Shown: positions 8,919 to 18,790 of the stretch, in pieces | Position numbering within the stretch: position 1 is the first letter of the stretch | Layout: the number at the start of each line of letters is the position of its first letter | IMG/VR virus record: IMGVR_UViG_3300023178_000176 | Coordinates: 1-31,439 of that record | Strand: one strand, 5' to 3' | DNA: 31,439 bases | From: a virus | Position numbers and translations under genes: made by a program | The notes under the pieces: model-generated | What the model was told of the DNA's origin: nothing | The model's database searches: none | The model's input: the letters and a program-made list of their open reading frames with translations, nothing else

Positions 8919-11900
8919 TTAAATTTGATCTGCTATATTCTTAGACGTACTTATTTGCTGTTTAAGCAGTCTATTTTGTGATCTAGTTTCAGCAAGCAAT
9001 TCTGCTAATAATTCTGCTTGTGTGTCAGTTTCTATCTTATTATCTGCTGATTTCTTTTCGGTTGTTTGTTGTTCAGTAGTCGCGACTTCTTCGGGTTTGT
9101 TTACCGCTGTGCCTTGAGGGCCTGCAGGCTGTGCAAATTGTATTCTTTCACCGGTGTCTGTGTTAGTGTATTGTGCCGCGCCTGCCGCTACTGCTTGCGG
9201 AGCAAATTCTTCACGAGCTTGTGTTTCTGCTTCTTGCATTCGCATTGCTCGTTGACCTCGAGTCATTGTACTGCCTTCAGCACTGTACTCTGCATCTATT
9301 TCTTCTTTTAATTCTTTCCTGCGATCTCTGAATTTGTTATAATTTTCAGAATCATTTTGTGCAAACTTCATTTCACTGAATGAACCGGAGTAATTTACAT
9401 TTTCCAGTGGATTTTGCTTGGCCGCTTGTCCCATATTGGCTACTGCATTGTTAGGCAGTTGCATTTGAACGTCGTTAGGATCAGCACCTATTCGTTGTAG
9501 TGCTTCTGCTCTTTCTTGCTCTGCTTCTGAAACTTTGGTTGGCTTAGCAGTGTCCTCTTCTTCTGCTTGAGGAGTCACTGCTTTCATTGCGGCTAATTTT
9601 AAAAGGTCAACCATGCTAAGGTTATCCATAGATTCGTTTAATCTATCAACACCTTCTGCCATTACTGTGAAGTGACTTCTTATGGAATCACTGTCTATGG
9701 CTTTTGCTGATTCGTTGAATGTTTTAATTGTGTCGTCCATGTTGCCCATGGTATCAGCCATCGCCACAATATGCGGAGCCGCATTACCTATTTTTGCAAT
9801 TTTATCAAACGGTGACTCTGCACCAAACAATTTGCCTAAGCCGTCTAATAATCCACTTATTAAACCGCCGGCACTTAATGCCGCCATGCCTACTGCCATG
9901 CCTATTAATGCAGGGCCTAATGCTAACATGCTTGAAATAGGAACATCTTTAATTGATGCTAAACCTTCGAACAGTGTTTGTATTGCTGGTGCCGCTATGT
10001 TAGCCGCAATGGCAAACGGAATAAGTGCTACACCTAATGCGCCTATTGCTATTGCACCTGGAATAATAAATGGCAGTGCTAATCCTAGCACAGATGCAAG
10101 TACGCCTAATCCGGTGAGTGCAACAAAACCTTTTGCTACATCTTCCCAATTTAAATTGCCAAATACTTCGAATGCTTTTGCCGCAACAAACATTGCGCCT
10201 GATATAACTAGCAGTGCCGCGGAACCTATCAATGCTTTAGGGTTACCTAATGCTTGTAGTCCTTTGCCTAATCCTGTTAATGTGCCTTGTAGTAATGCGC
10301 CTATACCTTTACCGACACCTTTACCGGCTTCCGCTATACCTTTACTTAATGTTGTTATGGCTTTGGATATGCCGCTTGCAAGATTGCTAACCACATTGCC
10401 TAATCCTTTTGATAATGTTGTTAATGCATTGGATACACCTTTTGCAAGATTTGTAAATAAGTCTGCTATGCCTTTACTGATATCTCGCATGCCATCGGCA
10501 AGTGTTTTGGTAAAACGTTGAGATGCTTTGCCTGCTTTTTCCATAGCCTTTGCACCCATGTCGCCTGCAGGGCTTGCACTATTACTTGCACCTGGTAATT
10601 TGCTTTTTAAGAATCCTCCAACCTTGTCGCTAAGTCCTCCTGTGATTTTGCTTAAACCTTTGCCTAATACTCCACCAACTGATTTCAATACGTTGCCTAA
10701 ACCGCCTAGTAAACTCTTTCCTAAACCTGCAATCATGCCTGGTATACCGCTACCGAATGCTTTCATAGCCAATAATACTATACCAACTATGCCGGTTAAC
10801 TTTCCTAATGTACCTGCTAAACTGCCGCCTTCACTTTCAAATAGTCCTGCAAACCACCCTAATAACTCACCGAGTTTAACAAATGGGTATTTGATAATAT
10901 CTATTACAACACCAAAGCCTTCGAACTTTTCAGCAAGATACTCTATTCCGGAAGATAGGCCGTCCCAAAGATAACCGATTCCTGCACCTATTGCACTAAA
11001 AATACTGCCTACTAATCTTAAAGGAATCATTACACCTTCAATAACACCTGATAAAAAGTCAAATGCTATAGTTATTGGTGCTACTGCTAGTTTGATTATA
11101 GTACCTATAGTACTTAATACTGAGAAAAATGATTTAAACCCGTTTACTAACTTAGGTACAAACGCAATCATACCTGCTACAAATTCTGCTACACCTGTAA
11201 TCAATTTAGGCAAGTGCTCTGCAACTTTTTCTCCAAACGATTCTGCACCTCCGGATAAGTCACCAAACACATCGCCCATACCGCCTAAGTCTTTGAATGC
11301 TTTACCTAATGCATCAAAAATAATTTGTTTTGCATCGTTTAATGCATCAGTAAATCTATCTGTACTCCCAACACCTGCAAAGAAAGAATACTTGAATGCA
11401 TCAAACATACCAGTAACTTCTTTTAATATTTTGTTAAAAGTATTAGTACCAGTTTGTACACCTTCCATTGTGAGGTTACTGTTTATGTCTGCAAGACGTC
11501 TTTCACTTTGTTCGAATTGTGTAATGGCTTTTGCCATTGATACTGCTTGAGCATCACCTGCCCTTGCTAGTGCAAACACTCTGTTCTTTTCTGCGGCACT
11601 GAGGTTTCCTAAGCTCATAGTGATTTGGTTACCCATTTCAGCCGCTTGTTCTTGACTTAATGTACCATTTTGAATAGCAGTGATATATTCATTCATTGGT
11701 CCTGCTAAACTAGGTACTGCTCTCACATAGCCTGTCATTTCTTCACTGAAGCCCATAGCACCCATCGATGCCGCTTCTGTGAATGCCGCCGCAATATTAC
11801 CGCCTTCTTCGCCACCCATACCACGCATAGCACTAGCAAAGTCTGTGATACCTGCTGTGACTTTACCTCTAACGTCATTACTAAAACGTATTAATGTAGC

Positions 11901-12782
11901 CGCTAGTACTGGAGTGTTTTGTAATATTGCTTTACTAAACTCTGCAAGTTCTTCTGTGCTTACACCTAATGCTCTACTGTATTGTTGTTGACGAGTGATA
12001 CTGGTTTGAATTTGTTTGTTTGCGGCCGCTCTACCTGCCGCTGTTGCAACATCTATTGCACCCAGTTTCTGTCTCATGCTTAATTCGTTACCATAACGGT
12101 TAACAGAATCTTCCAAACTCATACCAAAATCAACACCTGCATTGGTAGCATCCATAAATGCTGATGTCATTTCTGTGAATGCGCCTTTGCTTGTTGTAGC
12201 AACAACATTACTAAAGTTTGTCATCATTGCTACTGCATCTATACCTTTAGATGACAGTTTAGCCAATGCTTGTGTTGCTCTCATGGACTCGTCGCCCATT
12301 TCAACAAAGCCTACACCTACTCCTGTAAGTTGATTAAGTTCGTTACCAACATCTAAGAAGCCTTTGATAAACGCACCTAGTGCTACACCAGCCGCGGCAA
12401 CTACAGCACCTGTAAATCCTACAATAGCACTGTATGCTGTGGTCATTATTTTTTCACCACGTGCCATGGCTTTATTATAACGGTCTACTGCATCTTGGTC
12501 TAATGTAAATTCACCGCCTGATTCGGCTAGTTTTTTAAGTGCGGCTAATTGTTTTTCTCTGTCTTTATCAGCCTCTTCTTGTGATTTTTTGCTGTTCTTT
12601 GCTTCGTCTTTAGCAATGTCAAGTGCGTCAGACATGCTTTTTTCCATATCCTTAAACACATCCTTAGGAAAATTCTTTTTAAGGATTTCAAGCATATCCT
12701 TCTGCGTCTTTTCGAGAGCAAGGTCAGAAACTGTTCCTGTTGTTTGGGTGCCATCAGGCATATTGATTAAAATTTCAGCCAT
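8919..12782 (-). CDS. Tail tape-measure-like protein (gp29 position)
   Basis: This 1287-residue Ala/Gly-rich helical protein has a coiled-coil start (about 20-90) and several long hydrophobic segments (about 116-142 and 885-930, among others). There are repeats around Gly-Lys-Gly (GLGKGLQ, KGIGAL, SKGIAEAGKGVGKG) and a charged C-terminal helix. These are the hallmarks of tape-measure proteins, which set tail length and may reach the host membrane. T4 gp29, the equivalent, is only 590 residues. The neighbouring gp26-type gene with a frameshift supports the call, because tail chaperones usually adjoin the tape measure. Here they are divergent instead of co-directional. No sequence match to gp29 is claimed. 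Confidence 0.7.
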   Translation of the reverse strand: MAEILINMPDGTQTTGTVSDLALEKTQKDMLEILKKNFPKDVFKDMEKSMSDALDIAKDEAKNSKKSQEEADKDREKQLAALKKLAESGGEFTLDQDAVDRYNKAMARGEKIMTTAYSAIVGFTGAVVAAAGVALGAFIKGFLDVGNELNQLTGVGVGFVEMGDESMRATQALAKLSSKGIDAVAMMTNFSNVVATTSKGAFTEMTSAFMDATNAGVDFGMSLEDSVNRYGNELSMRQKLGAIDVATAAGRAAANKQIQTSITRQQQYSRALGVSTEELAEFSKAILQNTPVLAATLIRFSNDVRGKVTAGITDFASAMRGMGGEEGGNIAAAFTEAASMGAMGFSEEMTGYVRAVPSLAGPMNEYITAIQNGTLSQEQAAEMGNQITMSLGNLSAAEKNRVFALARAGDAQAVSMAKAITQFEQSERRLADINSNLTMEGVQTGTNTFNKILKEVTGMFDAFKYSFFAGVGSTDRFTDALNDAKQIIFDALGKAFKDLGGMGDVFGDLSGGAESFGEKVAEHLPKLITGVAEFVAGMIAFVPKLVNGFKSFFSVLSTIGTIIKLAVAPITIAFDFLSGVIEGVMIPLRLVGSIFSAIGAGIGYLWDGLSSGIEYLAEKFEGFGVVIDIIKYPFVKLGELLGWFAGLFESEGGSLAGTLGKLTGIVGIVLLAMKAFGSGIPGMIAGLGKSLLGGLGNVLKSVGGVLGKGLSKITGGLSDKVGGFLKSKLPGASNSASPAGDMGAKAMEKAGKASQRFTKTLADGMRDISKGIADLFTNLAKGVSNALTTLSKGLGNVVSNLASGISKAITTLSKGIAEAGKGVGKGIGALLQGTLTGLGKGLQALGNPKALIGSAALLVISGAMFVAAKAFEVFGNLNWEDVAKGFVALTGLGVLASVLGLALPFIIPGAIAIGALGVALIPFAIAANIAAPAIQTLFEGLASIKDVPISSMLALGPALIGMAVGMAALSAGGLISGLLDGLGKLFGAESPFDKIAKIGNAAPHIVAMADTMGNMDDTIKTFNESAKAIDSDSIRSHFTVMAEGVDRLNESMDNLSMVDLLKLAAMKAVTPQAEEEDTAKPTKVSEAEQERAEALQRIGADPNDVQMQLPNNAVANMGQAAKQNPLENVNYSGSFSEMKFAQNDSENYNKFRDRRKELKEEIDAEYSAEGSTMTRGQRAMRMQEAETQAREEFAPQAVAAGAAQYTNTDTGERIQFAQPAGPQGTAVNKPEEVATTEQQTTEKKSADNKIETDTQAELLAELLAETRSQNRLLKQQISTSKNIADQI

Positions 12783-12817: not shown

Positions 12818-12825
12818 GATAAATA
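12818..12825 (+). promoter_or_regulatory. Late promoter (GATAAATA) of the gp26-type gene
   Basis: GATAAATAGTT lies 60 bases before the ATG at 12885. It forms one arm of a perfect 11-bp inverted repeat with the minus-strand promoter at 12849-12859. Confidence 0.75.
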
Positions 12826-12851
12826 GTTTATGCAGAATTATGTGATATAAC

Positions 12852-12859
12852 TATTTATC
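12852..12859 (-). promoter_or_regulatory. Late promoter (GATAAATA) of the tape-measure gene
   Basis: The minus strand reads GATAAATAGTT (12849-12859), 70 bases before the tape-measure ATG at 12782. It faces the plus-strand element, so the two transcripts should overlap for some bases at their 5' ends. Confidence 0.75.
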
Positions 12860-12884: not shown

Positions 12885-13754
12885 ATGGCTAATAACACAC
12901 AGAATCCATTAAGTGCTTATTTTAGAGCACCAAAATTATATACAGGAATCCCTAGTGCAGGAAAATATTATACACCTGATGTTTGTGAAGTTCCTGATTC
13001 AGGTGAACTACCAATTTTTGCAATGACAGCAAAAGATGAAATGATCATGAAGAATCCGGATGCACTGTTAAACGGTGAAGCAGTAGCACAAGTTATCCAA
13101 AGTTGTGTACCTAACGTAAAAAATGCAAGAAAAATGTTAAGTAGCGATATCGATGTACTGCTAATTGCTATACAAGGTGCAACATATGGTGATGACATTG
13201 ATGTGTCTGCGCCGTGTCCTAAATGCGAACAACCATGCACAGGAACAGCAAGTGTAAACGATGCACTTACCACAATGGGTATTCTAGACGATCTTTACAG
13301 TGTGAAACATGGAGACGATTTAGTAATTAAAGTAAAACCTTTCACATACGCAAGCACAATTAAAGCAGGTATAACCAATTTCCAAAGTACCAGAAGTTTA
13401 CAAGCATTAGCAGATATTCCAGATGAAATGGAAAGATTAAAACTGTTTAATGAAAACTTTAAAGAAATTTCAGCACTTAACTTTGAACTGATTGCAGACA
13501 GTATCCACAGCATTAAGATTGTTGATCAAGATATTGACGTAACAGACAGAAATCAAATTGCAGAATTTTTAGATAATGCAGACAGTAGTGTAGGAAAAGC
13601 AGTAGAAGAAACAATTCAAAAAATTAACGAATCAGGCATCAACACACAAATGCAGTTAGAATGCGAGGCCGAAGAATGTAAAGAAAACGGTGAAACGTTT
13701 AAATTCGTTAGCAAAGTAAACTTTGATCCTGTAAATTTTTTCACGGCTTCCTAG
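12885..13754 (+). CDS. gp26: gp26-type baseplate hub / tail assembly chaperone, zero-frame product
   Basis: This 289-residue protein resembles the T4 baseplate gp26 family (recognised by pattern, not by search). It has an N-terminal IPSAGKYYTPD segment and a conserved helical core (RKMLSSDIDVLLIAIQGATYG, near 82-102). Paired cysteines C111-x2-C114 and C260-x4-C265 could bind zinc. It ends shortly after FDPVNFF. A GGAG site precedes the ATG. The zero-frame stop at 13752-13754 comes 9 bases after a T_TTT_TTC slippery site, so this is probably the shorter of two products, like lambda gpG. It acts in tail assembly in the cytoplasm. Confidence 0.8.
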   Translation: MANNTQNPLSAYFRAPKLYTGIPSAGKYYTPDVCEVPDSGELPIFAMTAKDEMIMKNPDALLNGEAVAQVIQSCVPNVKNARKMLSSDIDVLLIAIQGATYGDDIDVSAPCPKCEQPCTGTASVNDALTTMGILDDLYSVKHGDDLVIKVKPFTYASTIKAGITNFQSTRSLQALADIPDEMERLKLFNENFKEISALNFELIADSIHSIKIVDQDIDVTDRNQIAEFLDNADSSVGKAVEETIQKINESGINTQMQLECEAEECKENGETFKFVSKVNFDPVNFFTAS

Positions 13755-13975
13755 CACGGGCAGAGCCTGAAGAAATTTCCGGTTACCTAGGCAAGCTCAA
13801 ATCAGAACAAGATGCCCTCAACAAAACGATTATCGAGTTGGTAGTCTACAGTGAGGGCTCTGTGTCTTTTTCTGAAGTTTGGCAAATGACATTTGCTGAT
13901 AGACAAAACTTTGTGCAAGTCCTAAATCAATACAATCAAATCAAGTCTGGCAAAAAGCCAACAGAATATCTCTAA
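12885..13975 (+). CDS. Predicted -1 frameshift fusion product (gp26 plus C-terminal extension)
   Basis: If ribosomes slip -1 at 13736-13742 after codon 286, translation continues for 77 codons to the TAA at 13973-13975, giving 363 residues. The extension reads HGFLARAEPEEISGYLGKLK and later FSEVWQMTFADRQNF and IKSGKKPTEYL. The -1 frame is open only from 13727 (a TGA lies at 13724-13726) and has no ATG until about 13885, in the middle of the conserved-looking region, so it cannot easily be a separate gene. The arrangement parallels the G/GT chaperone pair of lambda and may correspond to T4 gp26 plus gp51. The alternative is a sequencing error in the T6 run, which would also yield one 363-residue protein. 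Confidence 0.75.
13736..13796 (+). promoter_or_regulatory. Programmed -1 frameshift signal
   Basis: The heptamer T_TTT_TTC (13736-13742) fits X_XXY_YYZ in the gp26 frame. Downstream, GCTTCCTAG (13746-13754) can pair with CTAGG-c-AAGC (13787-13796): nine pairs with one bulged C and a 32-base loop that itself holds GGC-AGA-GCC. The spacer is only 3 bases, shorter than usual, so the stimulator is less certain than the slip site. Confidence 0.7.
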
Positions 13976-14713: not shown

Positions 14714-15142
14714 TTATATGTTAGCCAAACTTTCTTTTAAGATTTTTGAGCCGCCTACTCTCACATTGATAATTCCGTTGTAATAATCGTCTGAAAGCAG
14801 TACTTGTCTGTCAAATTGTTCTTTTGCTTCTAAGTAACTGGCAACTCCTCTACTAGGGCAAAAGTATAGTATTTCACGAATAAAATTGTCTTCTCCATAC
14901 TTTGCTACATCATCTTTTAAATGATCTGAACTGCCCCAATACTCTCGCCAGTCACTTTCTTTAGTGCCTCGCCTTTTGTTCTTTTTGCCTTTTAGTGGTG
15001 GTTTAGTTGTTTTGAATTTTGCTAGTTTTTTACCGACATATTTCATGCCGTTCTTTTTGTTCGTGATTAGATATACGAATGCTTCACATCCTTTTGGTAA
15101 TTCGTTTACTGTATTATCTTTATGTATCCAATCGCTAGGCAT
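14714..15142 (-). CDS. GIY-YIG-like endonuclease-domain protein
   Basis: This 142-residue protein contains FVYLITNKKNGMKYVGKK (about 23-40), which fits the GIY-YIG core as YLI ... YVG with the usual spacing. It continues with a Lys-rich loop, ESDWREYWGSSDHL, and NFIREILYFCPSRG ahead of YLEAKEQ, where the Glu is the likely metal-binding residue. It overlaps the gp46 3' end by 8 bases and so belongs to the gp55-47-46 transcript. Free-standing GIY-YIG proteins in T4-like phages are often homing endonucleases (Seg family), but stable copies in a recombination operon may serve DNA processing. No DNA-binding C-terminal repeat is visible. Confidence 0.75.
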   Translation of the reverse strand: MPSDWIHKDNTVNELPKGCEAFVYLITNKKNGMKYVGKKLAKFKTTKPPLKGKKNKRRGTKESDWREYWGSSDHLKDDVAKYGEDNFIREILYFCPSRGVASYLEAKEQFDRQVLLSDDYYNGIINVRVGGSKILKESLANI

Positions 15143-17923: not shown

Positions 17924-18790
17924 TTAATCTGCTAATGATTGTGTATCTTCTTCTGCGGCTTCACGCATTGCACGAATTTGTTCTTCATGTGCAATTTGTC
18001 TGCCATAACTCGGTAAGTGTCCTTGCTCGATTAAGATATCATCTCTAATAGTTTGATTTCTTTTTTCGATATTAAGCACTCTGGTAAAACTGTTGTTAAC
18101 TGCCGCAGTATAATATGCAAACGGATTGTCTGACTTAGATTCATCAAATTGTAATCCAATTTGTGCTAATTGTACTAATGCTTGTCCACGCATTTCGTCA
18201 ACATAAGTGTAACCTCTCCAGTTTGCTCTGTGGCTGTAACGCTCAACAAGTTTTAAAAACATTGTTCCAAGTTTGTTTGTGATACTACCGTGTTCAGTGT
18301 TAAACTCACCATTACTTAAACTGCCCTGCCAATGACTACGAGCAACCTCTACAACATTATCATCTTTGTATGCATAATGCTTAAAAGGCTTAAAGTTTAC
18401 TTTGGCTTTTTCTTCCGCAATGTTTTTAGGGTTCTTTTTACGCCCTTCTTCATCAGGAATATGTTCATATGTCATAACTCTAAACACTAAATCTTCTATG
18501 TCAATAGACTTAGGATCAACAGCAAATTCTTTTTGTTTGGGTTTATTTTTATAATCTTTAGGATCGTGTAAAGCCATCGCCGCTTGATATCCTTCGTACT
18601 GCATCTTTGCGGCCTTGTTTTCTCTTGCTTGTTTTACGCTATTTCTATTGATCTTTTTGACATCTTCTAAAATAATATCAAAATCCGTGTATTTTTCGTC
18701 CTCAATATAACAGTATGACATCTTGCTTTTGTGAATCTCTGTTAAGATGTCTCTGTTGTTTAAGTAATTAATTTTTTTCTGCGTTGCCAT
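17924..18790 (-). CDS. gp55: Late-transcription sigma factor gp55
   Basis: This 288-residue protein carries the gp55 core at about 175-255: FLKLVERYSHRANWRGYTYV, DEMRGQALVQLA, then ESKSDNPFAYYTAAVNNSFT and RVLNIEKRNQTIRDDIL. This corresponds to sigma region 2, which binds core polymerase and the late -10 element. The N-terminus NNRDILTEIHKSKMSYC also resembles gp55. T4 gp55 has 185 residues; the extra length lies mainly between residues 35 and 150 and is rich in Lys and Glu. It is read from a host-type promoter, as expected for a protein that must precede late genes. A GGAG site precedes the ATG. Confidence 0.93.
   Translation of the reverse strand: MATQKKINYLNNRDILTEIHKSKMSYCYIEDEKYTDFDIILEDVKKINRNSVKQARENKAAKMQYEGYQAAMALHDPKDYKNKPKQKEFAVDPKSIDIEDLVFRVMTYEHIPDEEGRKKNPKNIAEEKAKVNFKPFKHYAYKDDNVVEVARSHWQGSLSNGEFNTEHGSITNKLGTMFLKLVERYSHRANWRGYTYVDEMRGQALVQLAQIGLQFDESKSDNPFAYYTAAVNNSFTRVLNIEKRNQTIRDDILIEQGHLPSYGRQIAHEEQIRAMREAAEEDTQSLAD

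Follow-up and report, generated by a model that had tools for sequence, protein, structure and literature searches.

A conserved -1 slip site near the end of a gp26-type gene in a T4-like virus points to a frameshifted tail chaperone pair

Frameshifting in the genes of tail chaperones (TACs) is well known. In the lambda G/GT and P2 E/E+E' systems, ribosomes slip back by one base towards the end of a short chaperone ORF next to the tape-measure gene, giving rise to a rare, C-terminally extended form of the protein. T4 has been described in a major review as the exception to this rule (PMC5009743). Its genome encodes two PF12322 proteins from divergent genes, gp26 (208 aa) and gp51 (249 aa), the latter of which is required for assembly and absent from particles (PMC3004832). 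In 2010, a paper on the T4 core genome described cyanophage and marine vibriophage gp51 as missing the first ~200 residues, which was left unexplained (PMC3037559), and the published annotation given there treats the -1 ORF of P-SSM2-type phages as a shortened gp51. According to PMC10885494 and PMC12846349, Vladimirov, Gautam and Davidson (2022) identified gp26/gp51 as the TACs of T4-like phages. In the account given by PMC10885494, some T4-like phages dispense with frameshifting and have one short copy and one long, fused copy, while PMC12846349 cites the same work for poly-T slip signals in the TAC-N genes of T4-like phages. The gp26/gp51 proteins as T4 chaperones are therefore already published, and poly-T slip sites were apparently noted in that study, as the later paper implies.

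The DNA analysed here (the window) is an IMG/VR virus record of 31,439 bases, which carries T4-like capsid, protease, portal, gp46/47-like, late sigma and baseplate genes. Its gp26-type gene adjoins, and is transcribed divergently from, a gene matching two families that are both labelled 'tail length tape measure protein' (Table 1). The gp26-type product matched PF12322 (T4_baseplate; E=1.2e-17, 64.8 bits, above the cut-off of 24.5) and phrog_150 (baseplate hub; E=5.5e-19), and 42 relatives of the gene, 53-100% identical, were found in IMG/VR; arrangement counts refer to the 41 whose sequence reaches its 3' end. An SD-like motif precedes the start in 37 of these 41. As the earlier note had claimed, the gp26 frame crosses T_TTT_TTC and ends at the coordinates given in Table 1, with a TAG at 13752. 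Its account of the second frame was equally accurate: the -1 frame contains a TGA at 13724, is open only from 13727 and runs without a usable start to a TAA at 13973-13975, and the fused product computes to the claimed 363 aa. The locus, 12885-13975, is most readily interpreted as encoding a TAC pair (G/GT, TAC-N/TAC-NC) through programmed -1 ribosomal frameshifting, a reading that is given a probability of roughly 85%.

Table 1. Coordinates of the slip site, the two reading frames and neighbouring features in the window.
Feature	Position	Strand	Remarks
Tape-measure protein gene	8919..12782	-	1287 aa; phrog_58 E=9e-8, phrog_4372 E=2e-7
GATAAATAG, T4-late-promoter-like -10 motif	12818..12826	+	about 67 nt before gp26 ATG
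Second GATAAATAG motif, divergent	12851-12859	-	between tape-measure gene and gp26
gp26-type gene (TAC-N, 'G')	12885..13754	+	ORF; 289 aa, ending ...DPVNFFTAS before the stop
A_AAT_TTT heptamer	13733..13739	+	likely primary or alternative -1 slip site in the window's family
T_TTT_TTC heptamer	13736..13742	+	in gp26 frame; common to jumbo, cyanophage and KVP40-like relatives
-1 extension ('T', TAC-C part)	13742..13975	+	adds HGFLARAEPEEI...KKPTEYL
Imperfect 9-10 bp stem, GGCTTCCTAG / CTAGGcAAGCT	13745..13797	+	downstream of slip site
SegE-like GIY-YIG homing endonuclease gene	14714-15142	-	PF19835, E=4e-32
gp55-type late sigma gene	17924-18790	-	

Two in-phase heptamers of the type X_XXY_YYZ overlap shortly before the zero-frame stop, where the -1 ORF also overlaps the gene. 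The T_TTT_TTC named as slip site in the earlier note is indeed present, but the A_AAT_TTT one codon upstream had been missed; a -1 slip on either would give the identical 363-aa protein. The gp26/-1 ORF arrangement was kept in all 41 relatives, down to about 53% identity. The earlier note had asked for conservation of the heptamer and the frame offset in relatives, and the offset was found in 41/41, as was A_AAT_TTT, while T_TTT_TTC occurred in only 30. The remaining 11 read TTT-TCC at the slip site (T5CC instead of T6C; L004, L014, L030-L032, L034, L036-L040), a natural swap that abolishes T_TTT_TTC but not A_AAT_TTT and causes no change in the predicted fused protein at the slip position. 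Since these relatives have lost T_TTT_TTC, A_AAT_TTT may be the working slip site in the window's family. Across the window's genes, an in-frame XXXYYYZ was found at 44 of 8,589 codon positions, and only at the two overlapping ones in gp26 does the -1 reading continue beyond the zero-frame stop, by 221 nt; the slip-site arrangement is thus far beyond chance. The site is also conserved beyond the constraint on the protein. In 26 aligned non-redundant genes, a conserved residue with a choice of synonymous codons was found in 103 columns, of which just four never changed codon: the slip-site triplets GTA, AAT and TTT, and a GCT located three codons further on. As these genes are related to each other, the counts are not independent events.

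The substitution pattern of the -1 extension is that of a coding sequence. Past the zero-frame stop, 64% of single-base codon differences were synonymous in the -1 frame compared to 18% and 11% in the other frames, and the -1 frame contained no stop in any of the 26 sequences, whereas the other two frames averaged about five. The -1 ORF spans 78-81 codons from the heptamer in the 41 relatives. At the same time, the gene end reads DPVNF[FS]xAS before the stop in the relatives, where x is Thr with one exception. The codon of this Thr, which follows the slip site, switches between synonymous forms in the zero frame (ACA/ACG/ACC), although these variants alter the -1 residue (S/G/R); this indicates that the tail of the short product is kept as well. 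The proposal in the earlier note of a programmed -1 frameshift and a G/GT-style pair is therefore supported, at the level of sequence comparison, by the 41/41 arrangement, the codon invariance and the coding selection on the -1 frame.

The arrangement extends well outside the window's family. The nearest isolates are jumbo T4-like phages with 26-39% identity in gp26 (121Q, GAP32, PA5oct, Atu_ph07, Phosso and SCTP-2). These six have T_TTT_TTC and an alignable -1 extension of 72-79 aa but, unlike the window, no A_AAT_TTT, and five of them carry gp26 in divergent orientation to an adjacent gene that is structural or large. In all eleven jumbo T4-like phages examined, T_TTT_TTC lies close to the 3' end of the gp26-type gene and a -1 ORF aligns to the window's extension, and public records annotate either two genes or the first alone, with the extension missing. 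The phages in which T_TTT_TTC was found together with a -1 ORF include, besides these six, BF, XbC2, XaC1, Hallingskeid, PHA46, Desulfovibrio phage 7757, the KVP40-like vibriophage phi-Grn1, S-RIM2 and P-SSM2, and Rhizobium phage I1_9 has TTTTTTG at the slip position. Prochlorococcus phage P-SSM2 has a single PF12322 gene followed by a -1 frame ORF annotated as gp51, and in 80 of 80 metagenomic loci of the cyanophage type (P-SSM2-related) T_TTT_TTC lies exactly 10 nt before the stop. P-SSM2-type cyanophages thus share the single PF12322 gene, the heptamer and the overlapping -1 ORF with the window, but their T part is about 62-65 aa long and has little sequence similarity to that of the window. 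Frameshift phages with a match to the PF12322 profile had one copy, compared to two in T4; for SCTP-2, the profile search returned no PF12322 match. The heptamer count covers lineages other than the Ackermannviridae-type relatives (D531, 207E48.1 and phiA8-29), which have no canonical heptamer. In three loci of this type (L146, L148 and L150), a -1 ORF overlaps a PF12322-type gene and the sequence reads CTT-TTC or CTT-TTT; another slip site may be used there, or coupled re-initiation.

In the most probable mechanism, most ribosomes would read to the TAG and release the 289-aa gp26-like protein (TAC-N, 'G'), while a minority would slip one base back on AAT-TTT-TTC (13734-13742), at A_AAT_TTT or T_TTT_TTC, and produce the 363-aa TAC-NC ('GT') with an extra helical C-terminal domain of ~77 residues. 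By analogy with G/GT, the common N-terminal domain would coat the divergently encoded tape-measure protein, and the role of the C-terminal domain would be to bring in tail-tube subunits; the frameshift efficiency and the binding partners are likewise extrapolated from lambda. The window differs from lambda and P2 in having the tape measure on the opposite strand, and family and structure searches returned no sequence relation to G/GT or E/E+E'. AlphaFold models were built from the window and the IMG/VR rows, separately for the N domain and the extension. The extension is predicted to be all-helical (pLDDT 81), while the N-domain model was mediocre (pLDDT 67); compared with the PDB, the latter matched no solved TAC structure, and in BFVD it retrieved gp26/gp51 relatives, with annotated TACs weakly similar (9NA and CcrColossus; E 0.1-0.3).

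The frameshift could be real and the product a component of the baseplate hub rather than a G/GT-type TAC. The matched families are named baseplate hub, and some T4 genetics places gp26 in the hub (PMC3004832). Against this stand the absence from the particle of T4 gp51, although needed for assembly (PMC3004832), and the T4-like TAC genes reported by Vladimirov et al. 2022, as relayed by PMC10885494 and PMC12846349. A short and a long product sharing an N-terminal domain, predicted from one gene next to the tape-measure gene, also fits a TAC, and a hub component appears unlikely. A chaperone role is accordingly suggested because of the T4 gp51 assembly data and the published identification of T4-like TACs.

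A further explanation would be two separate proteins, with the downstream ORF using a start of its own or being translated through stop-start coupled re-initiation, and no frameshift. The only start codons in the window's -1 ORF are TTG 13838, GTG 13862, ATG 13886 and GTG 13913, none of them plausible, and in 24 of 41 relatives no start codon occurs within the first 35 codons, while the others vary. With no conserved start, an independent start was rejected for the window's family. Elsewhere the situation is more favourable to separate translation, as 121Q, phi-Grn1, Rhizobium phage I1_9 and the P-SSM2 group have an ATG that either overlaps the gp26 stop or lies shortly behind it, and the locus is annotated as two genes in several public records. 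In contrast to the window, all 80 P-SSM2-like loci (L059-L138) have ATG as codon 6 of the -1 ORF, only a few bases past the gp26 stop, and this invariance makes a free C-terminal domain produced by re-initiation possible in that group. However, the gp26 stop is not accompanied by an ATG in PA5oct or GAP32, S-RIM2 lacks the one at codon 6, protein similarity starts exactly at the slip site, upstream of the annotated starts, and the T4 fused form is made from one frame. The invariance of the slip-site codons would also be left unexplained, and separate proteins without frameshifting are consequently very improbable. An independent start in relatives, which the earlier note had named as a refutation, is thus seen in some other lineages (the P-SSM2 codon-6 ATG and TAATG overlaps in several phages), but not in the window's family or S-RIM2. 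Coupled re-initiation may act as an additional route in several other lineages with an ATG near the gp26 stop.

The fused product could in principle also result from transcriptional rather than ribosomal slippage, as a T5-T6 run is present at the site and one added base leads to the same frame. So short a run is, however, a weak slip site for a polymerase, 11 of the 41 relatives have only T5, and the conserved element is a codon-phased heptamer that includes the AAT upstream of the run, which makes this origin very improbable. A sequencing or assembly indel in the T run that broke one continuous gene, homopolymer runs being prone to error, was rejected as having next to no probability: the identical T6 run in IMG/VR contigs L002, L003 and L042, which come from other metagenomes and encode the same protein, already makes it very unlikely, the same break recurs in 41 metagenomic loci, 80 cyanophage-type loci (121 in total) and finished isolate genomes, and the zero-frame tail [FS]TAS is conserved past the slip site, its Thr codon changing synonymously.

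The possible 9-bp stem that the earlier note had placed 3 bases after the heptamer exists in the window, where it begins at about 13745, 2 nt past the heptamer, but it is not a general feature of the locus. It is conserved only in the window's subclade, across nine sequences (the window and eight near relatives) and without compensatory changes, and no consensus structure was found by RNAalifold over the 26-sequence alignment. By eye, no SD-like stimulator was seen upstream of the slip site in the window.

Compared to T4, the window shares the PF12322 N domain and a probable role in tail or baseplate assembly, but in T4 the short and long forms come from two paralogous genes with no frameshift, whereas a single gene with a -1 slip site is present in the window. 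In T4 gp51, the N part corresponds to PF12322 and the C-terminal part to phrog_634, in one frame. The last ~50 residues align with the cyanophage -1 ORF, and the resemblance to the window's extension is weak and only suggestive (profile comparison of the latter with the T4/cyanophage extension, E 1e-4, probability 59%). As gp51 consists of a PF12322 domain plus a C-terminal extension, gp51 would itself correspond to 'GT', and gp26 to 'G'. The suggestion in the earlier note that gp26/gp51 represent the T4-lineage version of the G/GT pair is thus supported, with the correction that the downstream ORF matches only the last ~50 residues of gp51 and not the whole protein; as an idea it is not new, having been anticipated by Vladimirov et al. 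2022 according to PMC10885494 and PMC12846349.

In a tree of the N domain, T4-type gp26 and gp51 were sister paralogues (96/97) and the other lineages, with one gene each, fell outside, the tree being midpoint-rooted only and long branches including phi-Grn1 being unsurely placed. Given this paralogy and the composition of gp51, T4 has probably swapped frameshifting for duplication and fusion. The simplest history suggested by these comparisons is probably one in which the frameshift is old and the T4 two-gene form derived. A fuller version, which is favoured with reasonable but limited confidence, holds that -1 frameshifting of a gp26-type TAC was ancestral in the T4-like supergroup and kept in most lineages outside T4-type Straboviridae, that T4 gp26/gp51 arose by duplication and in-frame fusion, and that the slip site in the window's lineage is moving from T_TTT_TTC to A_AAT_TTT. 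A conserved slip site would explain the short gp51 described in 2010, the absent part being gp26, joined by frameshifting, as well as the T4 exception, where recoding would have been replaced by gene duplication and fusion. If the frameshift is true, the long chaperone is mis-annotated or missing in many public T4-like and jumbo genomes. The literature searched, which covered Vladimirov et al. 2022 through the two later papers, yielded no mention of the slip site being widespread in jumbo T4-like phages, of A_AAT_TTT as a variant or of an explicit connection with the short gp51 of 2010.

The tape-measure and gp26-type genes are both preceded by GATAAATA motifs, which resemble T4 late promoters. 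The GATAAATAG motif occurs four times in the window compared to 0.32 expected, and a + strand KATAAATA lies within 160 nt upstream of gp26 in 37 of 38 relatives. The window also contains a gp55-type late sigma gene. Finally, the GIY-YIG gene directly follows the gp46-like gene and has the same orientation.
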